This document shows positions 3,102 through 19,551 of a stretch of 52,311 nt of DNA, in pieces (the stretch's first letter is position 1; every line of letters begins with the position of its first letter). The translations under genes and the position numbers were made by a program. Below the pieces are notes generated by a model. The model saw only the letters and a program-made list of their open reading frames with translations. It was not told where the DNA came from and ran no database searches. Origin of the DNA: Gammaproteobacteria bacterium (GTDB lineage: Bacteria; Pseudomonadota; Gammaproteobacteria; SZUA-152); NCBI GenBank assembly GCA_029882975.1, contig JAOUJW010000037.1:1-52311 (forward strand), written 5' to 3'.

Positions 3102-3107
3102 TATAAT
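3102..3107 (+). promoter_or_regulatory. Possible -10 element for the second FadL gene
   Basis: A perfect TATAAT lies 82 bases before the GTG start, in a very AT-rich stretch between the two divergent FadL genes. I see no good -35 at 16-18 bases, so the call is weak. Confidence 0.35.
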
Positions 3108-3188
3108 ATTTTTATTGGAGCGAATTCTTTATCTCTATTAAAGTGGAATAGAGCCGTACCATAATAAAACGCACCGGGAGAATCTCAA

Positions 3189-4631
3189 GTGAAAAAATCA
3201 CATTTCAAACAAGTCTTGCCGCTAGGATTGATGAGTCTAGTCTTATCGCCTGGGTTGTATGCTACCAACGGTATGAATTTAGAAGGCTATGGCCCCGAAG
3301 CACATGCTATGGGTGGCGCTTCCATGGCATATGATAATGGCACAGCTGCCGTTATGAACAATCCGGCTACATTGGGTTTTATGGAAAAAAGCAGGCTGGA
3401 TGTGGCGTTTGGGTTTTTAGGGCCGAATGTGACTTCCAACGGCGCTGATTCCTCCGCCGATGCGTTTTATATGCCGGCAATCGGGTATATCCAAAAAAAC
3501 AATAATTTGTTTTATGGGGTTACCATGTTTTCCCAAGGTGGGATGGGGACGGAGTATGACAACGCTGGTTTTATGACAGAAGGGGGCCCAAGTTCCGGTA
3601 AAACTGTGCGGTCGGAAGTGGGTGTTGGACGGTTAATTTTTCCATTGGCAATGCGTGTTAATAATCAGCTTAGTGTGGCGGCAACCTTAGATTATGTTTG
3701 GGCAGGTATGGACTTGCAAATGGACATGAGCGGAGCACAGTTTGGTGATATGACCGTGGTGGGTTCTCAGTCCAAGGGTTCAGTATCCGGTTCACTCCCA
3801 ACTCAATTGGGGGGAATGGAATTTGTCGGCATACTGCAAGGCGGTAATCCCGTAAATTGGGCCCGGTTTGACTTTTCAGATGGCAGCCCATTTACTGGAA
3901 AAGCAAAAGGCACCGGGCTGGCGGGGAAAGTCGGCGTTATGTTTCAGATGAATTCCCAGGTTTCCTTCGGCGCTACTTACCATACTGAAACCTCGTTAGG
4001 TGATATGACCTCGGATAATTCCACCATAATGATGAGCGCCAATATTGATGATAACTACTTAAACCAAACTTGGGATGGCGGCGGTACCGGCACAGCGGCG
4101 GGAACATATACTGCGGTAACCATTCCACTAACTGGTAAGATTTCAATCAAAGATTTTCAATGGCCCGCCGCCTTGGGATTTGGTACTCAGTTTAAACTAA
4201 ACAATATAATCACCTTGGTCGCAGACATTAAACAAGTATTTTGGTCGAGCGTGATGAAGAATTTCAACATGACCTTTAATGCTGGAACTCAACCCGGATT
4301 GGCTGCTGGATTCTCTGGTGGAGATCTGAACGCTGCGTTAAAACAGGAATGGGATGATCAAACGGTATTGCAATTAGGGGGAGCCTATCAGTTCAATCCT
4401 GATTGGGTTTTTAGAGGTGGTTATAACTATGCATCCAATCCTATTCCTAACGAATACCTCAATCAATTGTTTCCCGCAACGATTGAACATCATCTGACGA
4501 TGGGGGCAGGGCACAAACTGGATGGATCCTCTTCAATCGATTTTTCATTAGCGTACGCTTTGTCAAATGAATCTGCCGGAGTTAAACACAGCCAGACCAA
4601 TTGGCAATTTCTTTACACCCATATGTTCTAA
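3189..4631 (+). CDS. Second FadL/OmpP1-family outer-membrane channel
   Basis: The 480-residue protein starts at GTG 3189 after GGGAG (8-base spacing) and has a signal peptide ending in GLYA. The mature N-terminus (TNGMNLEGYGPEAHAMGGAS, then NNPATLGF) is a diverged form of the FadL pattern in which NPAGM has become NPATL. The C-terminus ends in phenylalanine (YTHMF), the barrel-assembly signal. It differs clearly from the neighbouring FadL, so the two are paralogues from different subfamilies rather than a recent duplication. The role is probably uptake of a hydrophobic compound, unproven. A strong terminator follows. Confidence 0.88.
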   Translation: MKKSHFKQVLPLGLMSLVLSPGLYATNGMNLEGYGPEAHAMGGASMAYDNGTAAVMNNPATLGFMEKSRLDVAFGFLGPNVTSNGADSSADAFYMPAIGYIQKNNNLFYGVTMFSQGGMGTEYDNAGFMTEGGPSSGKTVRSEVGVGRLIFPLAMRVNNQLSVAATLDYVWAGMDLQMDMSGAQFGDMTVVGSQSKGSVSGSLPTQLGGMEFVGILQGGNPVNWARFDFSDGSPFTGKAKGTGLAGKVGVMFQMNSQVSFGATYHTETSLGDMTSDNSTIMMSANIDDNYLNQTWDGGGTGTAAGTYTAVTIPLTGKISIKDFQWPAALGFGTQFKLNNIITLVADIKQVFWSSVMKNFNMTFNAGTQPGLAAGFSGGDLNAALKQEWDDQTVLQLGGAYQFNPDWVFRGGYNYASNPIPNEYLNQLFPATIEHHLTMGAGHKLDGSSSIDFSLAYALSNESAGVKHSQTNWQFLYTHMF

Positions 4632-4717: not shown

Positions 4718-5866
4718 CTATTCCAGCAACTTCTTTAATAACCCCATTTCCCCCCGATCATAGTTTTCCAGGGCAGCGGAGGTATCTTCGTGGCCTTCGT
4801 TTTTAGCCAAGGAATATGCCGTGTTGCCCAGTTTGTTAACCTGCGTGGTTAGAGCGCCGTAGCTGAGCAGGGTGTTCAGGGTGTCTGTCTTGCCCAATTC
4901 GGCCGCCAGCAACAGGGCGGTGTTGTCATAGTTGTTTTTCAGGTTCACATTGGCGCCGGCGTCCAGTAACATTTTGACAATGTCTTTGTAGCCGCCAGTG
5001 GTGGCGAACATGAGAGCGGTGTTACCGCTTTTGGATTGAATATCCACATGCGCGCCTTTTTTCAACAAGATTGTCACAACCTCAGCGTAACCGCCTTTAG
5101 CCGCACGCATCAATGGGGTTTGTTGATTTACGTCGCGGATGTTAATCTCGATCTTTCTTTGTGACAGCAACACCTTGACCATATCGGCAGAGCCGTGATC
5201 GGCGGCAAACCACAATGCGGACCGGCCGTAACCGTCAGTGCCGTTTATATTGGCACCGGAGGCGACTATTTTACGGGCGATGGCATCATAGGAAAAACGT
5301 GCGGCTGTGGTAAGCGCGGTTAAAAACGTTTTGTCCTGAATGGTTCGGTTTGCGCCTTTTTCAATGAGGAAAGAGGCGACATTAAAGTACCCCATACGAA
5401 TGGACCAAATAAGAGCGGTGCGGCCAAATTTATCGGTTGTGTTCATGCTGGCACCACGGCTGAGAAGCTCAGCGACCGCTTCGCGTTGGCCATTGCGGGC
5501 GGCCCAGGCCAAAGGTGTGAGTCCGTCCAAATCTGCCAGGTTGATGTCACCACCGTGTTTTTGCAATAAACGAATGATCGCCGGATGACCGCGCCAAGCC
5601 GCATAGGTCATGGCGCTGCGACCGTCTCGGTCACGGGCATTGATGTTGCCTTTCGGGATCAGTTTGCTTACCTCGTCCTGTTTGCCTTTCCATGCGGCAT
5701 ACATAAGCTGGGTCCAACCGTCGTATAACTGGATTTTTTCGGCGGGATCCGGGGTTCTGTTTTTGAATCGCTCGCTTTTGGCAGCCAAAGCGCTGGTCGA
5801 GCCCAGTGAGGCAATAAGAAAAATACTACTAAGTGTAGTAAATATGGTAAATTTGGCGCTTGTCAT
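4718..5866 (-). CDS. Exported ankyrin-repeat protein
   Basis: About nine to ten ankyrin repeats of 33 residues fill the protein after residue 45, with typical turns such as DGRSAMTYAAWRGH, GLTPLAWAARNG and GNTALMFATTGG. I place the start at the ATG at 5866 because a clean signal peptide then follows (MTSAKFTIF ... TSALAAK). An in-frame ATG at 5905 would put 13 extra residues ahead of it and has no ribosome-binding site. Exported ankyrin proteins are protein-binding scaffolds in the periplasm; the partner here is unknown. Together with the Sel1 protein at 5967 and the Sel1-ankyrin protein at 17794, it flanks the cytochrome cluster. Confidence 0.85.
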   Translation of the reverse strand: MTSAKFTIFTTLSSIFLIASLGSTSALAAKSERFKNRTPDPAEKIQLYDGWTQLMYAAWKGKQDEVSKLIPKGNINARDRDGRSAMTYAAWRGHPAIIRLLQKHGGDINLADLDGLTPLAWAARNGQREAVAELLSRGASMNTTDKFGRTALIWSIRMGYFNVASFLIEKGANRTIQDKTFLTALTTAARFSYDAIARKIVASGANINGTDGYGRSALWFAADHGSADMVKVLLSQRKIEINIRDVNQQTPLMRAAKGGYAEVVTILLKKGAHVDIQSKSGNTALMFATTGGYKDIVKMLLDAGANVNLKNNYDNTALLLAAELGKTDTLNTLLSYGALTTQVNKLGNTAYSLAKNEGHEDTSAALENYDRGEMGLLKKLLE

Positions 5867-5966
5867 GGCGATATCGATTCCATTATGAATAAAACAGGAC
5901 AACATATTGTAATATTTACGGTTCGGGACCGGAAGAGGGTTTCCGTTGAAATAGTCTATCGATACA

Positions 5967-7730
5967 ATGGACCCGCTGATTCAGGTTTTTAGCTTATCTT
6001 TTATGATGAAAATAAGATATATCATTGTTTTTACGTTTTTTTTAGTGGTCGGTGTAGCATCGGCGGACGAAGCCAAGCCTGTGGAAAGCAAGGCCAAAAC
6101 TTCGAAAAGCACAAAAAAAACACCATCTCAAGACGATGCAGTGTCTGCTGCTTCTAAACAGGTTGTGATTCCCTCGGCTGTAGAGTGGTATTTGGATATG
6201 GCGGAAATGGGGGACAAGGATGCTCAGTTTAATTTGGGTTCCATTTATGAAACCGGTTTTGGCGTAGAGGTGGACTATAAGTCGGCGGTGAAGTGGTATA
6301 CCGAAGCGGCGAAACAAAATCATCCCGTAGCCCAAATTAAATTAGGTATGATGCACTATCTGGGCTTGGGGGGTGAAGTCAGTATTATTCGTGGTAAAAA
6401 ATGGATCAATGAAGCGGTAAAAAACGGAAACTCGGTTGCCAAACTGTTGCAAACCAAAGTGCTGGCGCACGATGCAGAAGCCGATATTGACCCAAAGAAA
6501 GTTATAGGTAAAGTTCGAGCTGCTTACGATAAAGGCGAAATCAATGCAGAAGAAACTTTGCGTTTGGAGTTACAAAAAATTCAGCGGCAACGCAAAGTAG
6601 AACAGCCCAAGGAGCGATTTTCCGGAAAAGTGACCGGCTCCGGCGCTAAACCCGGTTCGGTCAAGAATCGAGTTCCTGCTTTTCTGGAAGACAAAGTCAA
6701 ATCGGTGGTTCCAACAGGGGATAGCCTGGTCATGATTCGCCGCAATGCTCGCGAAGGAGTTCCTGAAGCCCAGTTCGAATTGGCGCAATTGTATGCAAGT
6801 GGGGAAAAAGTAGAACGAAACCTCAAGGAAGCGTTTCGATGGTATTCCTCTGCGGCTAATCATGGGTACAAGGATGCTCAATACCGCTTAGGTTTGGCTT
6901 ATCTGTATGGGTTGGGGGTCAATAAGAGCCTGGCTCAAGCAGGCATGTGGTTAAAGAAAGCCAGTGAACAGCAGCAGAAATCTGCCAGCTTGTTGTTAGC
7001 CTATTCCAGTTCGATTCGTGGCGGAGCCGTGGATAGAGAGAACTCCATACTTCTGAGTTGGTATATCGATGCTGCGATCGACGGTGACGGTGCAGCAATG
7101 ATGGGTTTGGGGACTATGTTTGAATACGGGTGGGGCGTTCCCATGAATGTGGATGAAGCGAAGCAGTGGTATCGCAAAGCTCGTGATATTGGAATACGCG
7201 GCGCCGCCAAAGCCTTCCGCGGAGTGAGAGTCGGTGAGGGTGAAAACGTGGGGCAACAAGGGGCAGCTTCCGAGGACGATGCCAATAAATTCGTTCCGCT
7301 CAAGCCTCGACGTGAGCGTGAAGCACCGGAGGAAGCGAGCCCTCAGCGCCGCACAGAGAGCCCGCAGCGGATGGAGAGCCCTCAGCGGATGGAGAGCCCG
7401 CAGCGGATGGAGAGCCCTCAGCGGATGGAGAGCCCTCAGCGGATGGAGAGCCCTCAGCGGATGGAGAGCTCTCAGCGGATGGAGAGCCCTCAGCGCACAG
7501 AGAGCCCTCAGCATAGCAGAGTCCAAGATCAAGCCGCCGACGGACAGCATACCCCTCTGGTGGTACAACAAGGCAGCCGCAGTCCCTTTCAGCATCCCAT
7601 GCCAGAGGCTGAATCCTCCGATTCCATTAACATGGACCGCTTGAAAGAAACGGTTACTCCTGTGTTGCTATTGTTTCTGGGTTTATTTCTCGGTGGTATG
7701 GCATTTAATTTTTTGCGTCGCATCACCTGA
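5967..7730 (+). CDS. Exported Sel1-repeat protein with Met-Glu-Ser-Pro-Gln-Arg repeats and C-terminal anchor
   Basis: A signal peptide (MKIRYIIVFTFFLVVGVASA) is followed by Sel1-like TPR repeats in two blocks, at about residues 70-150 and 255-420 (for example DAQFNLGSIYETGFGVEVD and GYKDAQYRLGLAYLYGLGV). A low-complexity stretch of about nine hexapeptides (TESPQR, MESPQR) comes next. A hydrophobic segment near the end (VTPVLLLFLGLFLGGMAF) and a short basic tail suggest inner-membrane anchoring with the repeats in the periplasm. The true start is more likely ATG 6003 or 6006 than 5967, because the signal peptide begins there; no start has a strong Shine-Dalgarno. The function is unknown. Sel1 proteins usually scaffold complexes. 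Confidence 0.85.
   Translation: MDPLIQVFSLSFMMKIRYIIVFTFFLVVGVASADEAKPVESKAKTSKSTKKTPSQDDAVSAASKQVVIPSAVEWYLDMAEMGDKDAQFNLGSIYETGFGVEVDYKSAVKWYTEAAKQNHPVAQIKLGMMHYLGLGGEVSIIRGKKWINEAVKNGNSVAKLLQTKVLAHDAEADIDPKKVIGKVRAAYDKGEINAEETLRLELQKIQRQRKVEQPKERFSGKVTGSGAKPGSVKNRVPAFLEDKVKSVVPTGDSLVMIRRNAREGVPEAQFELAQLYASGEKVERNLKEAFRWYSSAANHGYKDAQYRLGLAYLYGLGVNKSLAQAGMWLKKASEQQQKSASLLLAYSSSIRGGAVDRENSILLSWYIDAAIDGDGAAMMGLGTMFEYGWGVPMNVDEAKQWYRKARDIGIRGAAKAFRGVRVGEGENVGQQGAASEDDANKFVPLKPRREREAPEEASPQRRTESPQRMESPQRMESPQRMESPQRMESPQRMESPQRMESSQRMESPQRTESPQHSRVQDQAADGQHTPLVVQQGSRSPFQHPMPEAESSDSINMDRLKETVTPVLLLFLGLFLGGMAFNFLRRIT
7335..7512 (+). repeat. 18-bp tandem repeat, about nine units
   Basis: The unit GAGAGCCCTCAGCGGATG encodes ESPQRM. 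Units differ by single silent changes (CCC/CCT), one Ser for Pro, and Thr for Met at both ends. The array lies between the Sel1 domain and the membrane anchor, so it acts as a charged linker whose length could vary between strains. Confidence 0.9.
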
Positions 7731-7771: not shown

Positions 7772-9136
7772 TTATTCAGTCCCGAACTTGGTTTCGATTT
7801 GTATGCCTAGCTCTCGCAACATGGGGGTGGGTAAAACTCCGCCCGCACAGACAATGATTCCGTCATTGGGGAGTTCAAACGTGTCGTCTTTGTATTTCAT
7901 TACTACGTTGCTTGGCGTGATGTTTTTTACTTGAGAGCCCATTAAGCATTGTAGTTGGCCTGCTTTAACGGCGTCGTCAATTTTCACCACGTTTTTCGGG
8001 TTGGCTTTTTGGAAAGCGCTGCCGCGGTAGGACAGGGTGACTTCCGTGCCTATTTCTTCAGAAATCTGTAAAGCGGCTTCCAGAGCACTGTTACCACCAC
8101 CCACCACCAGTACTCGTTTATTGCGATACTGGCTGGGGTCGTCCAGCTTGTACACCACCTTTTCATGTTCCTCTCCGGGTACGCCCAGCTTGCGTGGGGT
8201 GCCCCGTCGTCCGATGGCCAGGAGTATGGTTTTAGTGTGGTACTTATTACGCTGGGTCGTCACTAAATAACCATCATCAAGTTTCTCAATTTTATCCATG
8301 CGTTCCAGCGTGTTGATGCGAACCCCGGATTTTTGTTGCGCTGCATTCCAGAAATTGATCAGGATTTCTTTGGTGGTTTCACCGAATTTTACGTGGCCGA
8401 TGATGGGGAGCTTAACCGGTGCAGTCATCACTATTTTTCCCCTGGGGAAGTGGGCCACAGTGCCCCCCAGAGTTTCCTGCTCAACAGTGATGTAATTTAA
8501 GCCTTGTTCATGTGCAAACAGTGAAGCGGAAAAGCCGGCAGGACCGGCGCCAATGATGATTACATCGTAAGGGGCGGAGCTCTCCATCATACGTACCGTC
8601 TTTGACAGGTTCTCCATGGCCTGGCGACCCTGTTCTATGGCATTTCGAATCAACCCCATACCTCCCAATTCTCCGGCGACGAAAATGCCGGGTACATTGG
8701 TTTCAAAATTGGGCTGTACAAACGGTATGTCCACACCCCGAGTTTCTGTGCCCAGTACTAAGGTGATGGCATCTGTTGGGCAAGCGGTTTTACAGGCACC
8801 GTGGCCGATGCAGTGGGAAGGGTTCACCAATTGGGCTTTTTCCTTGATGACGCCCAATACATTACCTTCCGGGCAGGCATCCACACAAGTAGCACAACCC
8901 AGGCACAAATTCCTGTCGATAATAGGGTGCAGGGACATGGGTTCAAAATACCCTGTCTCCTGTGCCATTAATAAGCTGCTGGTACTTTCCCGGTCTCTTT
9001 TGGCTTTAACTTTTTTGTAGATTGCCCAGGAAAGTAAAACCGGGATCAGATATATGAGAATTTTAGGAGCGTCTTCTAAGCCTGTAACCCTCAATAAATA
9101 CAGTAAATCGGCTATGAATTGAGATTTGTCTTCCAC
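7772..9136 (-). CDS. Membrane-anchored ferredoxin/FAD-NAD(P) oxidoreductase
   Basis: The 454-residue protein has one N-terminal membrane helix (about 26-40: ILIYLIPVLLSWAIY) and a two-cluster ferredoxin domain. Cluster 1 is C78-x2-C81-x2-C84-x3-C88-P. Cluster 2 is C109-x2-H112-x2-C115-x3-C119-P, with His where the second Cys is expected. The FAD dinucleotide fold (IIIGAGPAG, 194-201) and the second NAD(P) fold (VLVVGGGNSA, 342-351) follow, as in the thioredoxin-reductase superfamily. The FAD-domain segment VPGIFVAGELGG, normally C-terminal, lies at 148-159, before the GxGxxG. I see no CxxC redox disulfide in the flavin domain. The likely role is electron transfer between NAD(P)H and the membrane. 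It is divergent from the cytochrome cluster. Confidence 0.88.
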   Translation of the reverse strand: MEDKSQFIADLLYLLRVTGLEDAPKILIYLIPVLLSWAIYKKVKAKRDRESTSSLLMAQETGYFEPMSLHPIIDRNLCLGCATCVDACPEGNVLGVIKEKAQLVNPSHCIGHGACKTACPTDAITLVLGTETRGVDIPFVQPNFETNVPGIFVAGELGGMGLIRNAIEQGRQAMENLSKTVRMMESSAPYDVIIIGAGPAGFSASLFAHEQGLNYITVEQETLGGTVAHFPRGKIVMTAPVKLPIIGHVKFGETTKEILINFWNAAQQKSGVRINTLERMDKIEKLDDGYLVTTQRNKYHTKTILLAIGRRGTPRKLGVPGEEHEKVVYKLDDPSQYRNKRVLVVGGGNSALEAALQISEEIGTEVTLSYRGSAFQKANPKNVVKIDDAVKAGQLQCLMGSQVKNITPSNVVMKYKDDTFELPNDGIIVCAGGVLPTPMLRELGIQIETKFGTE

Positions 9137-9685
9137 TGTGAGTCCCCAACCACTGGATTGTTGTTTTTATAGTTTGTGTATTCTTTCTTTTTCCGGATTA
9201 ATTTCCTTAACAGTTCCATTGTTTTAGCTGCAATTTCCGCAGTCTAAAATATAGATATCATCACCCTAATACAAGCGGTTTATATAAAATTCTGTTTGAA
9301 ATAACCCGGAGGGATTATAACAAGTTAGAAAATCTGTGCGGTTATTTTTCTTCCTCTACGTACGAAAAAGATTGATGGGGTCATTAAGATATTGCTTGCG
9401 GTACTTTTTCTGGCTAGAATGCCAGTAAAAGTATTACTTATGTAGTAAGATTATTTTTTATGAAGTGGTTACGAGATCTCTAAGCGAGATTGAGCTTCTC
9501 TCTATAAGTGTTTGATTCTGCAGTTTTGTGGCATAATGAAATTGACAAAACAGGGCAACGCGGTGTCTACTTGCGTGTTTCCGGGCGGTAAAGGTAGGCG
9601 GTCGCTATAACTATTTTAATGATTTGATAAGTGTGCTTGATTATAATGACAAGCCAGTTAGCACACTTGGAAAAAGGAGTCACAA
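9137..9685. other. AT-rich intergenic region between divergent genes, no gene seen
   Basis: No plausible coding frame is present. It must hold the promoters of the oxidoreductase (leftward) and the cytochrome cluster (rightward). The inverted repeat AGTGTGCT / AGCACACT (9630-9637 / 9660-9667) encloses a TATAAT (9642-9647), 38 bases before the GTG at 9686, and could be an operator. No convincing -35 is visible. Confidence 0.5.
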
Positions 9686-10423
9686 GTGGCTGACGATACA
9701 TTGGGGGCAAAAGGCGCTTTTTCAAAAGTCGCCAAACATCCCTTTAGTTTTGCGGTGCTGGTGTTAAGCCTTGTCATTTTGCTGGTTTGGTATGATCTGC
9801 GGGGTACTTTGAAACAGGAGCAGAATCCGGCGAGCATGATAGGACAGGATTCCATGCGAGGCCCAATGGGGTCGAGTGAACCTCTTGTACCGTTGGGGCC
9901 GGCTACAAACTCCAACAGCGGACGTTCCCAACCGCAAGTTTTGGAGAATTTGACGGGACAACAATCTTCAGCCGCAGGCGCCATTGGCGATTTGGTGGGC
10001 AGATTAGAAGAAAAAGTAAAATCGGATCCCAAAAATATTGGCAATCGGCTGTTATTGGCTCAAACCTATAAAGAACTGGGGCGAGCAGATGAGGCGGTGT
10101 TGCTGTTGCAGGAGCTGCATAAAGAAAACCCCGAGAATCAAAGGGCTGTATTGGTCTTAGTGTCCATTTACAGTCAAAGCGACAATCCTCAGGAAGTCTC
10201 CGAGGCATTGAAGCTGGTGCAGAAAATTAAACCGGATGCAACAACACCGGAATATCTGCTGCGCATGTATACCGGGGATGCAATGATGCGGCAAAACAAT
10301 GTAAAAGATGCTGTGGTACAGTGGCAACAGGCCTTAATCACCATGCCACAGAGAGATCCTAATTATACGGTTTTAGAAAAAAGAGTTATGGAATTGTCAG
10401 CAAAGGACTCAGCGAACCCCTGA
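9686..10423 (+). CDS. Inner-membrane-anchored TPR protein, CcmI/CcmH-like
   Basis: The 245-residue protein starts at GTG 9686 after AAGGAG (8-base spacing). A single membrane helix (FSFAVLVLSLVILLVWYDL, about 20-38) is followed by a linker and TPR repeats (about 110-240; LLLAQTYKELGRADEAVLLL, YLLRMYTGDAMMRQNNVKDAV). The sequence RLEEKVKSDPKN before the TPRs resembles the periplasmic TPR part of the c-type cytochrome maturation factor CcmI, which holds apocytochromes for heme attachment. It is the first gene of the cluster ahead of two cytochromes with 38 CXXCH motifs in total, so a dedicated apocytochrome chaperone is a reasonable inference. A general assembly scaffold is the alternative. Confidence 0.8.
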   Translation: MADDTLGAKGAFSKVAKHPFSFAVLVLSLVILLVWYDLRGTLKQEQNPASMIGQDSMRGPMGSSEPLVPLGPATNSNSGRSQPQVLENLTGQQSSAAGAIGDLVGRLEEKVKSDPKNIGNRLLLAQTYKELGRADEAVLLLQELHKENPENQRAVLVLVSIYSQSDNPQEVSEALKLVQKIKPDATTPEYLLRMYTGDAMMRQNNVKDAVVQWQQALITMPQRDPNYTVLEKRVMELSAKDSANP

Positions 10424-10558
10424 TGCAACTGGGGCGACAATTATGACTATTCGTGGTTTTGGGATTTTTCCTTGTCTTGACGTAATGAGCTTGCATAGTG
10501 AATCAGGCAAGAGAAGGCATAGAAGAACCCCTTTAGTAGTTATAGGAAGTAGACGTGC

Positions 10559-11656
10559 ATGACAAACTTTAACACAGATATTAAACAGCAGGCGATTGAG
10601 CTGGATGGAGGGCCCGCTATGTCATTTGACTCCGGGCCGGCCGCAGAACAAAGATCGCAGCAAACTGCCGAGGCAGCAAAGGCGCAGTTTAAATCACAAA
10701 CCCATTCAGATGTTTTTGGTCTCAATTCTCCTGGTGGTGGTGCGGCACCCATCATTGGGGCGACGGCGCTATTGGCGGCAAAGTATCCCACCCATGCTGC
10801 GGAAAAAAACGATCGCAAATCCCGGTTTGAAACCCGCCTGGTGTTGTTTATCACCCTGGCCTTAACGGCATTGATTGTATATGGGTGGACTCAGTGGGGT
10901 AAGATCAATTTCAGGGCATCCTTTGATTTTGTTTATAATTCCGGCTTGATTGGCGGTATTTTGATGCTGTTGACCCTGCTATATGCAATTCGCAAGCGCG
11001 TAAAGCTTTTGAAAAAGCTCGGTGGTATGGAAGGCTGGTATTATTTCCATCTGATTGGCGGGGTCATTGGTCCTGTTATTGTGATTTTTCATACCTCATT
11101 TTCTTTGAAGTCGGTAAACAGCACCATGGCGTTCGTAGCAATGATGTTGGTGGTGATCAGCGGCTTGGTGGGTCGCTATATATACACTCGCATCGGTTAT
11201 GGCTTGTATCGCAAAATCGAATACATTCGAGATACCGAAACAGCATTGATAGATTCTTTGCGGCGTTATCCCTCACAGGGGGTGGAGAATATTGAACGCA
11301 GGCTGTCTACGTTTGCCTTGGCGTGTTTGGCCGGCCCGAAAGATTTGATTAAATTGCCTTTGAGGTTTTTGGCCATCCGAACCGCTTCAGCCACATGCTA
11401 CGTTCGCGCATCAGAAGATCTTAGTACTATGTTGCGGTATCTTGCCCAGGAAGAAGGGTGGAGTATCGGTATCTATAAAGATCTTCTGGAGCAAGAGAAG
11501 CGTTTGTTGCGGGATCACATTAACTCAGTGGTGGATATCGCTTATGTCCATTTGTACGAGCGACTCCTGGTGCGTTGGCGAATCATCCACATACCTTTGT
11601 TATACATTCTGTTCATCACCGGCGTGGCCCATGTAGTGGCTGTGCATATGTATTAG
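10559..11656 (+). CDS. Polytopic inner-membrane protein, putative di-heme cytochrome b
   Basis: The 365-residue protein has a hydrophilic N-terminal region of about 90 residues, then about five membrane helices (about 93-110, 128-144, 162-178, 190-208, 342-362). Two helices carry histidines in the H-x13-H spacing that holds two stacked b hemes in cytochrome b proteins: H164/H178 and H344/H358, with H363 nearby. A cytoplasmic or periplasmic helical domain (about 210-335) separates the fourth and fifth helices. ATG 10559 has AGGAAG upstream. In context it could pass electrons between the quinone pool, or the oxidoreductase at 7772, and the periplasmic multiheme cytochromes. The heme assignment is inferred from spacing only; I do not recognise the family. 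Confidence 0.75.
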   Translation: MTNFNTDIKQQAIELDGGPAMSFDSGPAAEQRSQQTAEAAKAQFKSQTHSDVFGLNSPGGGAAPIIGATALLAAKYPTHAAEKNDRKSRFETRLVLFITLALTALIVYGWTQWGKINFRASFDFVYNSGLIGGILMLLTLLYAIRKRVKLLKKLGGMEGWYYFHLIGGVIGPVIVIFHTSFSLKSVNSTMAFVAMMLVVISGLVGRYIYTRIGYGLYRKIEYIRDTETALIDSLRRYPSQGVENIERRLSTFALACLAGPKDLIKLPLRFLAIRTASATCYVRASEDLSTMLRYLAQEEGWSIGIYKDLLEQEKRLLRDHINSVVDIAYVHLYERLLVRWRIIHIPLLYILFITGVAHVVAVHMY

Positions 11657-11746
11657 TTGATACAGTACTGGTACATATTTTATGGCTCGTTTGCTTTCCC
11701 ATCCATTGTCCGGTCCCTTAGCTGATAAAGTTAGGGGTTGACAGCT

Positions 11747-13339
11747 ATGTTTTCACTACGGATAGTACTTCGAACAGTCGTTTTAGCTTGGGGATTTTTT
11801 TTGATGACGGTCATGCCCTGGGCGGAGGCTGCGATCGATCCCATGGAGCGTATGGAGCATTTGGTACAACCCGGGGATGTCATTAAAGGGCATGCACGCT
11901 TTGAAAAAAAGTGTAATAAATGTCATGAACCGTTTAATAAGGAAAAACAGAATACTTTATGTCGAGATTGCCACGAGCAAATTGACAAGGATTTGAAAGG
12001 AAAAAAAGGATTTCATGGGCGAATCCATAATGCCCAGAAGCGTGAGTGTCATACCTGCCATACCGACCATAAAGGCCGGGATATGGATATCGTGCAGATG
12101 GACCGGGAGACATTCGATCACGATAAGACCAATTTTAAACTTCGGGGAAACCACGACTCCATAACATGTAACAGCTGTCATAAAAAAGAAGGTTTCTATC
12201 GCCTGCCTCGCCATAGCTGCATAGATTGCCACGAGAAAGATGACTCCCACAAACAACGTATGGGCACGAAGTGCGAAAATTGCCATATCGAGGCCGCTTG
12301 GTTACCTGCGTTTTTTGACCATTCCAAGACCGATTTCCCTTTACGAAATAACCACACAAATGTCGGTTGTCAGTATTGTCATGTGAATGAGACTTATGCG
12401 GATTCACCAAAAAACTGTTATTTCTGCCATTATCTGGATGATGTTCACGAGGGTAACCGAGGTATTAAATGTCACGAGTGTCATAATGACCAGCGTTGGT
12501 CTCGAATTGAATTTGATCACGACGACGACACGGAGTTTGTATTAAATAAGGCGCACACTCGCTTATTGTGTAAGGATTGTCATAAGAAAAATATATTCAA
12601 AGAGGAGCTTTCCACTACCTGTTTTTCCTGCCACGAGGTTCACGATACTCATGCCGGTTTGTATGGCAAACGCTGCAACGATTGTCACACGGAAAAAGCC
12701 TGGTTAGATCTTAAATTTGACCACGACAAGGATACAGGGTTTCCCCTCAAGGGCGAGCACAAAGATTTGAGCTGTAAAGCCTGTCATAAGGGCGATATAT
12801 TTAAAGATAAGATTTCCGCAAGCTGTTCCGGTTGTCACAAGTTGGACGACGCCCACGAAGGGCAGGTGGGGGACAAGTGTACCCACTGCCACAACGAGGA
12901 AAGCTGGGTTAAAAAAGTTACCTTTGATCATGATATTACTAAATTTCCCCTACACGGCTCCCATCCCTTATTGAGCTGCGAGGACTGCCATACCTCCGGA
13001 AAATATCAGGATGCTCCTGTGATATGCGACGCCTGCCACAAAAAGGATGACACGCATGAGCGCAAGTTGGGTACTAAATGTGAACGTTGTCATGGTCCTC
13101 TTGACTGGTTGGCCTGGAATTTTGATCACGATAAAGAAACAGATTATCCTTTGGATGGTAAACACGAAGGCTTGGATTGCCACGGTTGCCATAGTGAGCC
13201 GGTGAAAGACAATAAGTTTGAGTTGGAGACCTTTTGTTTCGCTTGTCACGAAAAAGACGATAACCATGGTGGTCGGTTGGGGCGCCAGTGTGAAAAATGT
13301 CATATTACCAAGTCATTCAAAGAGATTCAGGTGAAATAG
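11747..13339 (+). CDS. 21-CXXCH multiheme c-type cytochrome built of seven tri-heme modules
   Basis: A signal peptide ending in PWAEA is followed by 21 CXXCH motifs. From the fourth motif on they recur in modules of about 65-70 residues with the order CXXCH, CXXCH, D-D-x-H, CXXCH, W, F-D-H, then x-N/E/S/K-H. Each module so offers three non-CXXCH histidines for three hemes, which suggests all-bis-histidine ligation as in NrfH/cytochrome c3-like proteins. I chose ATG 11747 (AGGGG upstream) over the TTG at 11738. The mature protein has no membrane anchor, so it is likely periplasmic and could span the periplasm as a wire. The neighbours are a putative membrane cytochrome b upstream, and another cytochrome and a barrel downstream. 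Confidence 0.93.
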   Translation: MFSLRIVLRTVVLAWGFFLMTVMPWAEAAIDPMERMEHLVQPGDVIKGHARFEKKCNKCHEPFNKEKQNTLCRDCHEQIDKDLKGKKGFHGRIHNAQKRECHTCHTDHKGRDMDIVQMDRETFDHDKTNFKLRGNHDSITCNSCHKKEGFYRLPRHSCIDCHEKDDSHKQRMGTKCENCHIEAAWLPAFFDHSKTDFPLRNNHTNVGCQYCHVNETYADSPKNCYFCHYLDDVHEGNRGIKCHECHNDQRWSRIEFDHDDDTEFVLNKAHTRLLCKDCHKKNIFKEELSTTCFSCHEVHDTHAGLYGKRCNDCHTEKAWLDLKFDHDKDTGFPLKGEHKDLSCKACHKGDIFKDKISASCSGCHKLDDAHEGQVGDKCTHCHNEESWVKKVTFDHDITKFPLHGSHPLLSCEDCHTSGKYQDAPVICDACHKKDDTHERKLGTKCERCHGPLDWLAWNFDHDKETDYPLDGKHEGLDCHGCHSEPVKDNKFELETFCFACHEKDDNHGGRLGRQCEKCHITKSFKEIQVK

Positions 13340-13479
13340 ACCCATTCTATGTGACTTCGCTTTGCGGGATTGCAATATTATTCCACCTCAAACAGCGGAC
13401 TTATTGAGTAGCAGCATAATTGCTGTAAACTGTCATAGATAGCATTACACCCGCAGGAAAATCGAGAAACTGTAACGTT

Positions 13480-14781
13480 ATGGTTGCGAGTATGATCAAA
13501 AAACTGAGCAAACCCATGCTTGGAGCGGGTTATTGCTTAATTTTTTGCCTAAGTTTTGTGTTCCCAGTTCAATCGCAGGTCCTGATTGAGGAATATGACC
13601 ACTCGGTTCAAGTGGAAGATCCGAGTCGTTTCAGTCATTTAACCACGGGCTTTCCTTTAACCGGTGCTCACGAGCTGATTACTTGTATTTCCTGCCATAG
13701 TAACGGGTTTTATGAAAAACTTCCGCGCCGCTGCGATTCTTGTCACAACAATAAGCGGGCGCAGGGTGCATCCGGCCAACATGCAACCATAAACCAGCCC
13801 TGCGATGTGTGTCACACAACCTCCGGTTTTTTTGAGACAATCGCTATGGACCACGCCATCGTTAACGGCAACTGTATTTCCTGTCACAATGGCGCCACTA
13901 TATCGGGTAAACCTCAAACCCATGTTCGAGTCAGCGACTGGTGTGATGCCTGCCATGATCGCCGCTACTGGAAACCCTTGCGAAAATTGGATCACGAGCA
14001 AACCCAGGCGCCTTGTCTGGATTGTCATAATGGCAGTATCGCGACCGGCAAATCAGCGAGTCATATTGTCAGTACGGACCACTGTTCCGGGTGTCACCAG
14101 TCCCTCACCTCATGGGAGCTATCGGCGCGACTGAATCATGACCAATTACAGAATCCGTGCACGGTCTGTCATCGTTCGAATGCTAAACATTTACGTGTAT
14201 CACAACAATGCCAAAGCTGTCATGGTACATCCCACTGGATACCGGTTATCAAACTGGATCATTTGGCTTTGATGGGAGATTGCGCTAATTGTCATGATCA
14301 GCCGGTTCAGCACCCAAGAGCAACGGTATCTTGTATCTCCTGTCATAGCACGACCAATTGGCGTTTAATGGAACTTGATCATAACCATTTTTTGGGTACG
14401 TGTTCGCAGTGTCACCAAAAGGATTTCCCGTCTGCCCATATTCAAGTTCGACGTAATTGTGGTGCTTGCCACCATACAAAAACTTGGCAAGATAATGTTA
14501 AAATGGACCACGAAGAAGTGCAGGGTTTATGTAAGAGTTGTCATCAAAGTCCCAAAGAACATCCTGTTTTCGGTTATGACTGTGTGGTTTGTCATAGCAC
14601 ACGAGGTTTTGAGCCTGCCGTGATTGATCACAGCGCTATTTCTCCTCATTATTGTCGTGTTTGTCACAATGGTAGAATTGCTGAAGGTAAACCGGTGGAA
14701 CATTGCCGGACTCGCCGCGAGTGCGATTATTGCCATGAGAAATCGGGTTGGGAGAATGCACGATCGTGTAAATCCAGGTAA
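13480..14781 (+). CDS. 17-CXXCH multiheme c-type cytochrome
   Basis: The 433-residue protein has an N-terminal signal peptide (cleavage probably after VQSQ) and 17 CXXCH motifs. After a first part resembling the 21-heme protein (TTGFPLTGAHELITC), the pattern becomes a two-heme unit: CXXCH-N-G ... H ... CXXCH ... W ... (L/M)DH. The same unit occurs in the truncated multiheme protein at 1-1349. The conserved DH and xxH residues are probable distal heme ligands. ATG 13480 is taken; ATG 13492 is also possible, and neither has a strong Shine-Dalgarno. It lies between the 21-heme gene and the barrel gene. I infer a periplasmic or surface electron carrier working with the barrel. There is no lipobox. 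Confidence 0.92.
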   Translation: MVASMIKKLSKPMLGAGYCLIFCLSFVFPVQSQVLIEEYDHSVQVEDPSRFSHLTTGFPLTGAHELITCISCHSNGFYEKLPRRCDSCHNNKRAQGASGQHATINQPCDVCHTTSGFFETIAMDHAIVNGNCISCHNGATISGKPQTHVRVSDWCDACHDRRYWKPLRKLDHEQTQAPCLDCHNGSIATGKSASHIVSTDHCSGCHQSLTSWELSARLNHDQLQNPCTVCHRSNAKHLRVSQQCQSCHGTSHWIPVIKLDHLALMGDCANCHDQPVQHPRATVSCISCHSTTNWRLMELDHNHFLGTCSQCHQKDFPSAHIQVRRNCGACHHTKTWQDNVKMDHEEVQGLCKSCHQSPKEHPVFGYDCVVCHSTRGFEPAVIDHSAISPHYCRVCHNGRIAEGKPVEHCRTRRECDYCHEKSGWENARSCKSR

Positions 14782-14837
14782 ACTTCGACTCGGTCTAAAC
14801 AATTTGATATAAAAACAATATTGAGGGTGAATCGCGG

Positions 14838-15269
14838 GTGTCTGTTAAAAATATTATATTGATAATGGTTCTCATCACCATTGGATATATATATACCACC
14901 TACATGGGGGAGAAACCAGAATCTTTGGTTGCGGATTTGGTGTTAACCAAAGAAAAGGACGGTGGCAATATTCATCTGGATTTTTCCGGGCCTGTTCGGC
15001 ATTTGGGGCATTTTCCAGAAGTGGAAGGGAATATCATTCAAATTAAACTGCGAGCCATTTCTTTTCATAAATTTCAGGAAAATTTCTCGGTTGTTGATAA
15101 GTTTTTGCTCGCGGGACGGGCTGGAGATTATTTTATCCAAGATATTCGTTACGAAGGCGATGTACCCGGCGGCCCTTTTGTCATCATAAAGTTTACCAAA
15201 CCCATGAGCTATCTGGTCAATGAAGGGGACGGGTTGAAGGGTTTATTAATTAATTATAAATCACTTTGA
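14838..15269 (+). CDS. Small anchored protein, paralogue of the N-terminal domain of the next gene
   Basis: The 143-residue protein starts at GTG 14838 after GAGGGTG and has one N-terminal hydrophobic segment (IILIMVLITIGYIYTTYMG), an uncleaved anchor or signal. The remainder is a single domain of about 105 residues, rich in beta-strand pattern. It shares clear landmarks with residues 45-150 of the barrel protein at 15330: HFPEVEGNIIQIKL against HFPQTFGEIIQIQL, and YEGDVPGGPFVIIKFTKPM against YEEGVPGGPYLTLRFTHPM. The fold looks AMIN-like (periplasmic domains that bind peptidoglycan or secretin partners), but this is a guess. It probably helps to assemble or dock the conduit. Confidence 0.75.
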   Translation: MSVKNIILIMVLITIGYIYTTYMGEKPESLVADLVLTKEKDGGNIHLDFSGPVRHLGHFPEVEGNIIQIKLRAISFHKFQENFSVVDKFLLAGRAGDYFIQDIRYEGDVPGGPFVIIKFTKPMSYLVNEGDGLKGLLINYKSL

Positions 15270-15329
15270 TTTATCAGAATTAATTGTTAATTTATACGAA
15301 TTTATAATAATAATTCACCTTATTAGGGC

Positions 15330-17639
15330 ATGGGATTTAAAGGTTATCGAATGTCATACTGTTCTGAGAGTCGCTTACGCGCTGGCTTGTATCCTGTAGT
15401 ATTACTGGCCGCGATATTATGCCTGTTAGGTCAGCGAGCAATGGCCGCCGAGGTGGTATTGCAGGATATAAAAATCACCAAGGAGGGCGCCGCCACTCAA
15501 GTGGAAATTTCCCTTGGGCGGGCACTGGGCTATGTGAAGCATTTTCCGCAAACATTTGGCGAAATAATTCAGATCCAATTGTTGTTGGATGCGGACAAAC
15601 AGCGGTTGATCCATAAGGAAATGCGTCAGGGCAAAGAGCTGCAGGCAGTCGCCGGTGGTAAACAACCTTTGACTTACGTCACTTACGAAGAAGGTGTACC
15701 GGGAGGACCCTATTTAACGTTACGTTTTACCCACCCTATGGAATTCACGGTTGAAGCAAAAAGCGACACTTCTTTGCTCATCACCCTGACAGAAAAGCAA
15801 CAAACCCAACAGGCGTCTTCAGACATTTCCACAGGATCCACGCCCCCCGGTATGTCGCCACCGCCAGGAACTACCAGCACCGCGCCACAAAGCAAGCAAC
15901 TCAATGTAGGCGAGCTTATGGCTAAGGCCCGACAGGCTTTAACTTTCGGTGATAATGAAGGCTCAGCAAGATTGTTACGCAAAATTATTGCGATTCCGGA
16001 TAACCCTCACGCACAGGAGGCGCGCGAATTGTTGGGGCTGTCTTTAGAGCGTAGTAAGCAAATCGATCGTGCCCGATTCGAATATAACAAATACCTGGAG
16101 CTGTATAAGAAGGGCGATGGTCCGACCCGAGTCAAACAAAGACTGCAGGCGTTAGACAGCATGGGTATTGTGAAAAAACGTAAAAAACTGCGTGTGGTTC
16201 GCCGCGAAGAAGACCGGCAAACTTACAAATTCTTTGGGCGAATTTCTCAAGACTATGGGCAAAATCTGGCCCTGGACAATCCGGAGTTGGGGCCGGGCGA
16301 AACTGCATCCAGTGATGAAAAATTTGTTAAAACCGTTCGCAGCAGCAGCCATGTCAGTTTACGGGGTCGCTATCAGGATGGAAATCGTATTATCAATTCA
16401 GTTATGACCGGCAGTTATTCCTGGAGTCAGTTTGGTGACCGGGACCCCAGGAAAGATACGAGGCCATCGGATTTTTATGTTAATTATTCCCAGGATCGAG
16501 ACACCTTGTTTGCCACCTTGGGATTGCATCGGGCTCGAAGCGCCGGGGTTTATGATCGATTCTGGGGTGTGACGGGCGGAGCGGAAGTGTCTGAAGGTGT
16601 GACCGTAAGTCTGCTCGGCGGGGATGTTTATACTCATGATGTAACTTATGAGAAAAACTTTTTTGCTGTAAAAGCTGCATTGGGTAAACGACGTGCCATA
16701 GTATCCGGTAATGTGTATATGGTAAATCAAACGGTTGACTCCATGGCAGATCGTGAGGCCATGGGTGGAGATATGCGTTACTCTGAAAAGGAAGTTACCA
16801 TGTTCGGCAGCCTGGATTACGACACATTTTACGGGGTGCCCACCTTGGGTAATGTACGGTGGGGGTGGCAGTACAACAAAAAGTCTCGTCTCAATATCTC
16901 TTACGATTATCGCAATCTGATTTTTACCAGTCAGGCAACACGCTTGTATTACACAAATGCCACTCTTAACTATGCCTTTGACGGTATCGATGAAATGCGT
17001 AAAGTGTTCTCTGATGAGCGAATCAAGGAAATTGCCAGAGCCTATACGGCCAAAACCCATTCCATAACAGCGGGTACCAGTATTCAGGAAGACAAGGATA
17101 ATCAATACACATTTGATTTTTCCATGTACAAATCCTTAGACGGTGACTCGGTCACGATTACCCAGGCAGAGGTAGATCGCGTGCCTGGAGGCGCCACAAC
17201 GATTGGAGAAGGAAATACCATTTCACCGCTGTTAGAGAATCGTACCTATACGTTGTCTGCTCAGTGGATTGCCAGTAATGCGCTGCAGGAAAACGATTTG
17301 CATGTCGTTGGGGTACGCGCATCGCAGTATCAGACTCGAAATGCAGGCTCTGGCCAGTTGGAGACTACGTCCACGGATGTATCTTTGTTTGTCAATTCAC
17401 GTTTGGCTCCCATTAATAATTGGAACCCTCGCCCCCGACTAACCATGAGCTACCGTAAGTTTGCGGGAGTTAGCACAGGTAACCGCCTCATGGTTCAACC
17501 GACGGTTAAATTGGACTACCGTTGGAAGAAAGAGTGGGTTTTCGATGTGGAGTTTGGCATTACATGGCTGGACTACGCTAACGATGATTTTGATAAAAAC
17601 GAGGGTGCCATCCGATTGGGTTATAACTACACCTTCTGA
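15330..17639 (+). CDS. Outer-membrane beta-barrel with N-terminal AMIN-like and TPR domains
   Basis: The 769-residue protein has a signal peptide (LYPVVLLAAILCLLGQRAMA, about residues 20-39), an AMIN-like domain (about 40-150) homologous to the upstream small protein, a Pro/Ser/Thr linker (about 160-190), a TPR region (about 195-275: LMAKARQALTFGDNEGSARL, ARFEYNKYLELYKKG), and then about 460 residues of alternating strands with aromatic girdles. It ends in YNYTF, the barrel-assembly signature. The order periplasmic docking domain, TPR, barrel differs from MtrB/PioB porins, which lack such an N-terminal extension. Given the two multiheme genes just upstream, it is the best candidate for an outer-membrane sheath through which cytochromes pass electrons. 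An ordinary secretion or channel role cannot be excluded. Confidence 0.85.
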   Translation: MGFKGYRMSYCSESRLRAGLYPVVLLAAILCLLGQRAMAAEVVLQDIKITKEGAATQVEISLGRALGYVKHFPQTFGEIIQIQLLLDADKQRLIHKEMRQGKELQAVAGGKQPLTYVTYEEGVPGGPYLTLRFTHPMEFTVEAKSDTSLLITLTEKQQTQQASSDISTGSTPPGMSPPPGTTSTAPQSKQLNVGELMAKARQALTFGDNEGSARLLRKIIAIPDNPHAQEARELLGLSLERSKQIDRARFEYNKYLELYKKGDGPTRVKQRLQALDSMGIVKKRKKLRVVRREEDRQTYKFFGRISQDYGQNLALDNPELGPGETASSDEKFVKTVRSSSHVSLRGRYQDGNRIINSVMTGSYSWSQFGDRDPRKDTRPSDFYVNYSQDRDTLFATLGLHRARSAGVYDRFWGVTGGAEVSEGVTVSLLGGDVYTHDVTYEKNFFAVKAALGKRRAIVSGNVYMVNQTVDSMADREAMGGDMRYSEKEVTMFGSLDYDTFYGVPTLGNVRWGWQYNKKSRLNISYDYRNLIFTSQATRLYYTNATLNYAFDGIDEMRKVFSDERIKEIARAYTAKTHSITAGTSIQEDKDNQYTFDFSMYKSLDGDSVTITQAEVDRVPGGATTIGEGNTISPLLENRTYTLSAQWIASNALQENDLHVVGVRASQYQTRNAGSGQLETTSTDVSLFVNSRLAPINNWNPRPRLTMSYRKFAGVSTGNRLMVQPTVKLDYRWKKEWVFDVEFGITWLDYANDDFDKNEGAIRLGYNYTF

Positions 17640-17793: not shown

Positions 17794-19551
17794 TTATTTT
17801 TTCTTCTTTTTCTCCAGCTCACCCTTGGGTATTTTAAAATCGGGGACCCGGGCTCCGGAATTCTTCAGCAAGCGATAAGTCTCATCATGACCGTAGCTGG
17901 CAGCGATGTAAATGGGAGACAGGCGTCGATTGGACACGGCATTGATATCGGCGCCTTTGTCAATCAGGGCTTTAGTTACCCGAATGTGGCCATTTCTGGC
18001 GGCCAGCATCAGCGCGGTCCAGCCTTGATTGTTTCTCATGTTTGGGTTGGCGCCTTTATCAATGAGTTCCAGTACCAACTCGGGTTTGTTGATTTCTGCG
18101 GCGTGCATAAGTGCGGTAAATCCATCGGTATTGCGTTCGTTTAGAGAGGCGCCTTGTTGAATAAGGAAATTGGCCACTTTATCCTGCTTGCCACGTACAG
18201 CTGCGATTAAGGCCGTGTCGCCAAATTGGCTGCGGCCGTCTATACGGGCTTTGCCCTTGAGTAAAGTTTTCACCATGGGTAGGTTGCCTCGTTCTGCAGC
18301 AATGACCAATGCAATATTGCCGCGCTCATTGGGCACTTGCGGATCGACACCACCTTTGAGTAGAGCCGTTACGACCTTTTCCAAGCTATATATGGTTGCG
18401 TAAATCAAGGCGGTATTCCCGTGATTATTTTTTGCCAAACCGATGGTACCGGTGGCTGTATTGAGTAATAAAGAATTTATGGCCTTGAGGTTGGCTTTTT
18501 CCACGGCAAGGAGCAAAGGGGTTAAACCGGTTTTGTCGGCAATAGCGGCTGAGGCATTGTGTTCCAGCAGGATTCTAATGGTGGCCGGCTTGTCGTTAAA
18601 TGCGGCGTGATGTAGAGCCGTTCGCCCCAGAGCATCCTGATGATTGATATTGGCTTTGGCTTTTAGGAGTTCCTTCACAATGCCCTGGTGGTCAGCGGCA
18701 GCCGCAATAAGCAAAGGCGTGCGCTCTAAAGCATCCGTGTTTTCTAAATCCGCGTCTTCTTCGATCAGGACGCGCGTGGCATCCGCATTGTTGCGCATGG
18801 CCGCATAGGCCAATGCGGAATAGCCGGCTTTATCTTTCATGTCGCTTAAGGCTTCACGTTTTATCAAGGTTCGTACGGTGTCTGCACGGTTGAAATAGGC
18901 GGCTTCCATTAGTGCGGTACGAGCGCTTTTATCTGCAGCATTAACGCCGGCTCCCAATTTGAGTAGTTCCAAAGCGGTGTTGCTATGACCTTCAGCAGCG
19001 GCCCATCGTAGTAAGTCGTTTATGTCCAGTGGGTCCTTGTCTTTGCTCTTTTTTTGTTTGCGAATATCGAAATTGAGATTGGCCATAGGATCGTTGGACA
19101 TTTGTTCGAGTTTTTCTTTGGCCAGTTCCACTTTTTGCGATGCGGCCTTGCGGAACCATTGGTAGGCTTGTTCTTTGTCCTGTGGCGTGCCCCAACCCTT
19201 CAAGTGCATCATGCCCAAATTGTATTGGGCTTGAGGGTGACCTTTTTCTGCCGCCCGTTTGAACCACTGAAATGCCTTGTCAATGTCCTTTTTAGCGCCG
19301 GTCCCAAGGCGGTGCATGACTCCCAGGCGATATTGCGAGTTGGTATGGCCTTTTTTGGCCAGCTCATTCCACAGTTTGATGGCGGTGTCATAATCCCGTA
19401 ATTTAGCCGATTCCATTGCTTTAATGTAATTTGGGTGTTCTTGCGCCGCATGAACCGGCTCCAGACTGAGTAGGGCGGCCATTAGCAATACGGCCGGTCT
19501 CATTGCGGTAAGGATCAAGGATAAGATTGGGGTGGCATTCGGTCTGATCAT
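17794..19551 (-). CDS. Exported Sel1-plus-ankyrin repeat protein
   Basis: The 585-residue protein has a signal peptide (about residues 17-36, ending PVHAA), two to three Sel1 repeats (about 50-150; SQYRLGVMHRLGTGAKKD, PQAQYNLGMMHLKGWGTPQD), then about eleven ankyrin repeats to residue 570, and a lysine-rich tail. ATG 19551 is used; ATG 19503 would start the signal peptide more tightly but has no ribosome-binding site. It combines in one chain the two repeat types found separately in the proteins at 4718 and 5967. It is convergent with the barrel gene. The likely role is a periplasmic protein scaffold; no enzymatic motif is visible. Confidence 0.87.
   Translation of the reverse strand: MIRPNATPILSLILTAMRPAVLLMAALLSLEPVHAAQEHPNYIKAMESAKLRDYDTAIKLWNELAKKGHTNSQYRLGVMHRLGTGAKKDIDKAFQWFKRAAEKGHPQAQYNLGMMHLKGWGTPQDKEQAYQWFRKAASQKVELAKEKLEQMSNDPMANLNFDIRKQKKSKDKDPLDINDLLRWAAAEGHSNTALELLKLGAGVNAADKSARTALMEAAYFNRADTVRTLIKREALSDMKDKAGYSALAYAAMRNNADATRVLIEEDADLENTDALERTPLLIAAAADHQGIVKELLKAKANINHQDALGRTALHHAAFNDKPATIRILLEHNASAAIADKTGLTPLLLAVEKANLKAINSLLLNTATGTIGLAKNNHGNTALIYATIYSLEKVVTALLKGGVDPQVPNERGNIALVIAAERGNLPMVKTLLKGKARIDGRSQFGDTALIAAVRGKQDKVANFLIQQGASLNERNTDGFTALMHAAEINKPELVLELIDKGANPNMRNNQGWTALMLAARNGHIRVTKALIDKGADINAVSNRRLSPIYIAASYGHDETYRLLKNSGARVPDFKIPKGELEKKKKK

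Follow-up and report, generated by a model that had tools for sequence, protein, structure and literature searches.

The window analyzed here, the complete 52,311-nucleotide contig JAOUJW010000037.1 (contig C37 of a 5.18 Mb gammaproteobacterial genome in 59 contigs), carries a block of genes whose sequence features identify it as a PCC3 porin–cytochrome complex. Adjoining it is the gene for a membrane-anchored oxidoreductase (OXR) that probably serves as the cytoplasmic electron-entry module of this complex. A first-pass annotation, made from the sequence alone, had noted seven genes between positions 7772 and 17639 and had read them as an undescribed electron conduit from the inner to the outer membrane. 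All seven genes are present, and their content supports a conduit well, but the system is of a published kind, named PCC3 by He et al. in 2017 (PMC5566968). What is new is that homologs of OXR and, nearly as often, of an ankyrin-repeat protein are as constant at PCC3 loci as the four published genes, together with what these two further core genes would imply.

OXR (454 amino acids, 7772..9136, − strand) is divergent from six genes on the + strand. These encode a membrane-anchored tetratricopeptide repeat (TPR) protein (9686..10423), an inner-membrane protein (IMP, 10559..11656), a periplasmic 21-heme cytochrome c (11738..13339), a second multiheme cytochrome with 17 hemes (13480..14781), a small anchored protein (14838..15269), and an outer-membrane barrel protein (15330..17639). 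PCC3 was defined by a barrel, extracellular and periplasmic multiheme cytochromes (median 34 and 21 hemes, respectively), and an IMP of ∼300 residues with five helices, of which the third and fifth bear WX3HX13H motifs and the fourth SGXXG, and it was reported from Alpha-, Beta-, and Gammaproteobacteria (PMC5566968). By sequence, the window block displays those features of the definition that can be tested. The link to the loci of He et al. was made through Amphritea atlantica DSM 18887, for whose PCC3 63 and 21 hemes are given (PMC5566968); the homologous locus that we recovered (L112) encodes an IMP, a 21-heme and a 63-heme cytochrome, and a 739-amino acid barrel in the order of the window, with one small gene ahead of the barrel. 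We assign the block to PCC3 because the IMP signature, the 21-heme cytochrome, the second cytochrome, and the barrel occur in this conserved order and because the Amphritea locus is homologous.

The window IMP, 365 amino acids long, contains W160-x3-H164-x13-H178, W340-x3-H344-x13-H358, and SGLVG at 201–205, so that the two H-x13-H motifs read from the sequence earlier are indeed there. None of these residues varies among the 18 rows of one alignment, and in a second alignment of 32 rows W160 (≥90%) is the only one that does. An AlphaFold2 model (mean pLDDT 79.6, pTM 0.71) has five helices of a length to span the membrane, the last preceded by an extended helical stretch, and we predict a di-heme b-type protein. 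A scan of named genomes with the 21-heme cytochrome alignment relied on a single peptide pattern; it gave 241 relatives, of which the best 80 loci were kept. Two HX13H motifs are found in 76 of the 77 IMPs at these loci, the exception being a 173-residue piece.

Both window cytochromes are densely packed with hemes, in agreement with the counts annotated at first. There are 21 CXXCH motifs in 533 residues (25.4 residues per heme) and 17 in 433 residues (25.5), values that fall within the printed PCC3 range of 22 to 39 with a median of 26 (PMC5566968). The 21-heme protein is 39 to 68% identical to 15 aligned relatives, and exactly 21 CXXCH motifs occur at 77 of the 80 loci, the others having 22, 23, and 27. 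The 13480 protein is the putative counterpart of the PCC3 “extracellular” cytochrome; proteins at other loci that resemble it by BLASTP and position reach 69 hemes, and the first PCC3 cluster of Sideroxydans lithotrophicus ES-1 has the same pair of 17 and 21 heme sites as the window (PMC8788666). A search of the host genome for paired CXXCH-like motifs was dropped, as its 22 matches were at chance level (19 in a reversed control).

For the barrel protein, AlphaFold2 predicts a β-sandwich (residues 44–154), TPR helices (193–278), and 22 strands (300–768), with a mean pLDDT of 80.3 and a pTM of 0.58, as expected from its earlier description as a TPR-containing outer-membrane barrel. Foldseek matches to this model are porins of a generic sort, ushers, and barrels of the PelB/BcsC type, all at low TM-scores (at most 0.35 on the query), a result that supports a predicted barrel and nothing more specific. 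Compared with barrels from other PCC3 loci, 24 in number, the protein shows 21 to 47% identity. Like MtrCAB, MtoAB, and PioAB, the window system combines a periplasmic multiheme cytochrome with a barrel that spans the outer membrane, but its inner part is IMP with OXR rather than CymA. In Pfam (E ≤0.1) the barrel protein matches TPR families only and neither MtrB nor PioB, and the decaheme MtrA/DmsE model TIGR03508 (cut-off 192.2 bits) gives 43 bits for the 17-heme and 17 bits for the 21-heme protein, which bears out the annotated unlikeness to the Mtr and Pio proteins. The likeness to the published PCC3 of Sideroxydans ES-1 (Slit_0867–0870), Leptothrix, and Amphritea extends over the porin, the second and 21-heme cytochromes, the five-helix IMP, and the low number of residues per heme; the clade of the window has in addition the TPR gene and a stand-alone copy of the barrel protein's N-terminal domain.

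The published PCC3 comprises four genes, whereas we find OXR and ankyrin genes at nearly every locus with adequate flanks. In OXR, Pfam matches (Fer4, Pyr_redox_2/3) delimit an iron–sulfur region (about residues 70–125) with two 4Fe-4S motifs and a FAD/NAD(P) region (about 190–450). The enzyme should face the cytoplasm, as had been proposed, because a hydrophobic N-terminal helix is followed by basic residues (judged by eye). Its FAD domain, which is closest to YpdA and thioredoxin reductase, covers positions 1–251 of Pyr_redox_2, and the remainder of that model (258–291) is matched by the stretch preceding the domain (E 0.0093); the domain therefore looks circularly permuted. Conservation of OXR runs deep as judged from its sequences: of 66 OXRs, two of them incomplete, 64 have a GELGGxGL segment, and in the second cluster motif, C-x2-H-x2-C-x3-CP, histidine replaces the second cysteine in all 64 OXRs that have both motifs. 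The first motif has cysteine at this position in 63 of those 64, and we infer that the histidine is a ligand of the second cluster.

The association of OXR with PCC3 was measured in a sample of 369 genomes of the class, including that of the window, with a threshold of E ≤1e-60 for OXR. OXR occurs in 43 and the 21-heme cytochrome in 40 of these genomes, and both occur together in 39 where 4.7 are expected (Fisher p ∼6e-47, a value that overstates independence because the genomes share ancestry). At 38 of 44 cytochrome places, a count in which each of six split cytochrome matches is entered once, OXR lies on the same contig at a median gap of 1330 bases (maximum 9133). Four genomes have OXR and no match to the 21-heme cytochrome. 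In two of them (G200 and G326) other PCC3 genes run into a contig end, a third (G285) has IMP and barrel pieces and no cytochrome, and in the fourth (G120) the contig measures 3.5 kb and its ORFs with heme motifs are short.

The 80 loci from named genomes, whose close relatives of the window are uncultured Gammaproteobacteria, point the same way. With all their ORFs scanned, OXR is present at 66, IMP at 77, the second cytochrome at 74, the barrel at 61, and the ankyrin protein at 59. Many of these loci end at contig ends, and among the 35 that have flanks of 7 kb or more on both sides the counts are 34 for OXR, 34 for IMP, 35 for the second cytochrome, 34 for the barrel, and 32 for the ankyrin protein. 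Two doubts attached to the first-pass annotation, that the genes might be scattered in relatives and that the barrel might be too narrow or unconnected to the cytochromes, find no support: the genes mostly stay together, and a barrel predicted to have 22 strands accompanies the cytochromes; the inclusion of the 7772 oxidoreductase was likewise justified. OXR also occurs at loci titled Nitrospirota, Nitrospira, Nitrospinaceae, Omnitrophota, and Deltaproteobacteria (L073, L074, L093, L118, L119, and L127). On a plasmid of the Bacteroidota member Emticicia oligotrophica (NC_018749.1, L146), IMP, OXR, a 23-heme, and a 40-heme cytochrome gene lie head to tail on one strand, with an hhalign probability of 99.8% for IMP and 47% identity for OXR. 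Because the same set recurs in the same order across genera and phyla, it reflects more than chance. At one further locus (L149:6399–11026), which looks degenerate, IMP, barrel pieces, and OXR are present with no multiheme cytochrome between them.

Neither OXR nor the ankyrin protein was found described as a part of PCC3 in the literature searched, a search that had supplements, figures, preprints, and subscription papers outside its scope; among the six papers on PCC3 and electron transfer that it covered, none uses the word “ankyrin.” In Table 1 of one study, 41 of 87 genomes have a cluster named “4Fe-4S ferredoxin iron-sulfur binding domain protein,” and 42 have the periplasmic PCC3 cytochrome (PMC10734462); this cluster may be OXR, and the portion of that text consulted does not link it to PCC3. 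Two other papers that were consulted in part concern other systems (PMC13322032, PMC11223495).

Distant relatives of IMP provide a second line of evidence. In five genomes all IMP matches are weak (E 2e-8 to 2e-4: G028, G061, G051, G066, and G037), and the neighborhoods of four were viewed, G028 being left out. At three of the four loci the IMP lies beside (L063, L065) or appears fused to (L064) a different flavin reductase, and each of these three adjoins an 8- or 10-heme cytochrome. In G051 (L063) IMP is accompanied by a Pyr_redox/cNMP/Fer4 protein and a 10-heme cytochrome. The IMP of G037 (L065), of 209 amino acids, overlaps a reductase with FAD_binding_6, NAD_binding_1, and Fer2 domains, and an 8-heme cytochrome is present. 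In G066, a 660-amino acid ORF (L064:8480–10462) with Pyr_redox_2, Rubredoxin_C, and Fer2_BFD domains overlaps a 10-heme cytochrome gene; its C-terminal ∼170 residues have two HX13H motifs, of which the first alone is preceded as WX3H, and no SGXXG, and the fusion is suggestive only because the IMP score is low (17 bits). We regard this position as functional because different flavin reductases fill it next to a membrane protein of one kind. He et al. had already mentioned “another redox protein” for PCC4 and for IMP clusters that lack a porin (PMC5566968). These clusters share with the window the histidine pattern of IMP, multiheme cytochromes, and mostly a further redox protein, but they have fewer hemes (8 to 10 at the distant loci seen here) and other redox proteins. 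As a separate observation, the 10-heme cytochromes at L062:663–2354 and L063:1386–3125 share an unusual N-terminal part that is FHA-like by eye.

The gene set with its heme motifs, histidine pairs, barrel, and linkage, as present in sequence or model, is consistent with a chain for which we infer the cofactors, their contacts, the locations of the parts, and NAD(P)H as the donor. NAD(P)H or a low-potential carrier would reduce the FAD and the two [4Fe-4S] clusters of OXR, and electrons would then pass to the two b-type hemes of IMP and across the inner membrane. The 21-heme cytochrome would carry them over the periplasm, and the barrel with the 17-heme cytochrome would lead them through the outer membrane to an acceptor outside, with the ankyrin and Sel1 proteins probably forming a scaffold for the periplasmic part. 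The inner part would work like a split ferric reductase or NADPH oxidase, enzymes that also have two HX13H pairs on two helices and a cytoplasmic flavin/NAD(P)-type module; MsrPQ is presumably a similar system. It would differ from them in that the flavin module is a separate, thioredoxin reductase-like Fe-S protein and the acceptor a multiheme wire. The HX13H likeness itself was already noted for the PCC3 IMP (PMC5566968).

Taken as a whole, the reading of PCC3 as a trans-envelope NAD(P)H:extracellular-acceptor oxidoreductase, built of a split NADPH oxidase-like module, a 21-heme cable, a barrel, and an ankyrin scaffold rather than as a quinone-linked iron oxidase, is offered tentatively. Its least certain step is outward electron flow, for which we see the case as evenly balanced. 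By general thermodynamic reasoning, reduction of NAD(P)+ by the PCC3 route from an outside donor near 0 mV would be uphill in potential and would run against the membrane potential, which argues for outward flow. The direction had earlier been said to be beyond what the sequence could tell, and the constant NAD(P)-type partner now offers an argument, short of proof, for the outward one.

The model in the literature runs the other way. In it an outside donor (Fe(II), minerals, or perhaps reduced sulfur) gives electrons to the cytochromes, which pass them by IMP to the quinone pool, as hypothesized by He et al. (PMC5566968), and OXR would have a side role. This model is favored by the rise of the copy-2 PCC3 IMP of Sideroxydans CL21 when iron oxidation is possible (PMC12442390) and by the RuBisCO and DsrA matches of the window host. 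It leaves unexplained why OXR is as constant as IMP and why distant IMPs have flavin-reductase partners, and these two observations lead us to favor a split reductase module with outward flow and to consider the inward model unlikely. Published expression data point both ways: expression of the PCC3 genes of S. lithotrophicus ES-1 falls rather than rises on Fe(II) (PMC8788666), which agrees with outward flow. In the part of an ES-1 magnetite proteome table that we consulted, values for PCC3 lie between 0 and ∼63, lower than those for Cyc2, and the extracellular PCC3 cytochrome Slit_1448 is 0 in the eight values shown, which counts against the inward model.

Several further observations weigh against the NAD(P)H-driven scheme. 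The donor of OXR and its contact with IMP are putative, and the PCC3 literature consulted holds expression and proteome data and no biochemistry of any PCC3 part. Besides the CL21 data, the lifestyle of a host with RuBisCO, DsrA, and a heme-copper oxidase could make use of electron uptake. In Pfam searches at E ≤0.1, IMP matches no family, the ferric-reductase FRD domain (PF01794) included. Structure matches of the IMP model from Foldseek/VIA are long-helix noise and include no ferric reductase, cytochrome b, or MsrQ-like protein among those listed, a result that excludes nothing, and comparison of an IMP profile with the PDB gave mostly chance matches to fused b562. At the fourth distant locus (L062, G061), IMP and a 10-heme cytochrome have no flavin reductase among the scanned neighbors.

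The linkage has exceptions as well. The 21-heme cytochrome lacks OXR on its contig at 6 of the 44 places (in G123, G024, G213, G291, G208, and G108). That in G123 (contig C200) looks like an assembly break, since the cluster ends near the contig end and OXR is at the start of another contig, and G213 has an OXR piece of 115 residues. In G024, PCC3 and ankyrin genes lie within 20 kb and OXR on another contig, with no sign of a contig break, and in G108 the cytochrome and OXR lie on separate contigs, both well away from base 1 and again with no such sign. Two loci, L083 and the 10.7 kb Omnitrophota locus L109, have neither OXR nor IMP beside the cytochrome. In the Emticicia operon no ankyrin gene was found, and the next protein, of 538 amino acids, matches neither the barrel model nor Pfam.

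OXR might instead serve assembly, using its thioredoxin reductase-like domain to send electrons through IMP and keep the CXXCH cysteines of apocytochromes reduced until heme attachment. The relationship to YpdA and thioredoxin reductase fits such a role, as do the weak resemblance of the TPR gene to CcmH/CycH and the cytochrome-biogenesis gene ccsA that precedes the Emticicia operon. No redox CXXC pair was seen by eye in the aligned FAD domains, a thiol system would seem to need neither the [4Fe-4S] pair nor the b-hemes, and strong relatives of the TPR gene occur in one clade only, which together make this role very unlikely. That the complex merely stores electrons or buffers periplasmic redox state, a capacitor role raised for PCC3 (PMC10734462) that would suit 38 heme motifs in two proteins, is scarcely credible given an outer-membrane barrel beside the cytochromes at 34 of 35 well-flanked loci.

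PCC3 is under discussion as a possible iron oxidase; it has been called functionally unverified, and its IMP has been proposed as a potential marker for the activity of iron oxidation (PMC12442390). Should a cytoplasmic NAD(P)H-type enzyme be its constant partner, electrons may enter PCC3 elsewhere and flow in another direction than assumed, iron oxidation inferred from PCC3 transcripts could mislead, and Gram-negative cells would have a testable NAD(P)H-to-outside pathway. If the NAD(P)H-driven scheme is true as a whole, the four-gene definition would need two more core genes, and PCC3 would discharge reducing power of the cytosol to the exterior, for instance in autotrophs of sulfur and iron zones. 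As a genome marker for PCC3, OXR may also prove sharper than the low-complexity cytochromes.

The host genome has a second PCC3 (C1:39001–59000, L031) with a 722-amino acid barrel, cytochromes of 23 and 21 hemes, IMP, OXR, and an ankyrin protein. In a quick tree of 93 rows, the 11 rows with the TPR gene lie on one side of a branch with support 94, just below the 95 mark; the C1 copy belongs to the sister set of this window clade, and the 22 rows together have support 99. Both PCC3 types occur in four genomes (G000, that of the window, and G001, G056, and G123), and an old duplication, or transfer, is therefore likely. The host has two matches to the RuBisCO large chain, one to COX1 (heme-copper oxidase), and others to CcmF and DsrA, which suggests a sulfur-metabolizing autotroph.

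The TPR protein appears to be an accessory of this clade. Its strong relatives (E ≤1e-10) occur at 10 other loci of the tree, on the same side of the branch as the window, and the restriction to one clade holds at this threshold among tree loci, as weaker matches are found in L131 and L154. It had been called CcmI-like; the TPR matches stand, and the CcmI label was dropped because TPR_CcmH_CycH scores 32 bits, below its cut-off of 42, while CcmF lies elsewhere in the genome. An AMIN-like label for the small anchored protein and the barrel protein was also given up, since in Pfam at E ≤0.1 the former matches no family and the latter TPR only. The small protein is instead homologous to the N-terminal domain of the barrel protein (BLASTP, 31% identity over 116 amino acids, E 3e-13) and is conserved in L032, L034, and L038.

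The block is larger than first annotated, as ankyrin and Sel1 genes on both sides (4718–7730 and 17794–19551) have relatives beside PCC3 elsewhere. An ankyrin-repeat protein of 395 amino acids (4718..5905, − strand; Pfam ankyrin matches, probable signal peptide by eye) has homologs that adjoin OXR and PCC3 in relatives and is presumably a periplasmic partner. A Sel1-repeat protein of 587 amino acids (5967..7730, + strand; Pfam Sel1, with a probable signal peptide and a C-terminal membrane helix by eye) is a neighbor among relatives of the host family, its gene having the same place in L034, L038, L039, L041, and L042. Beyond the barrel gene lies a Sel1 and ankyrin protein of 585 amino acids (17794..19551, − strand; Pfam matches, probable signal peptide by eye) that is related by BLASTP to the ankyrin protein adjoining OXR at other PCC3 loci. 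Within the Sel1 gene, a tandem repeat of ESPQRM units at 7000–7600 leaves more than one frame open. Two genes for FadL-like outer-membrane proteins (1592–4631) also adjoin the block, and relatives of one or both lie near it in L034, L038, L039, L041, and L042.

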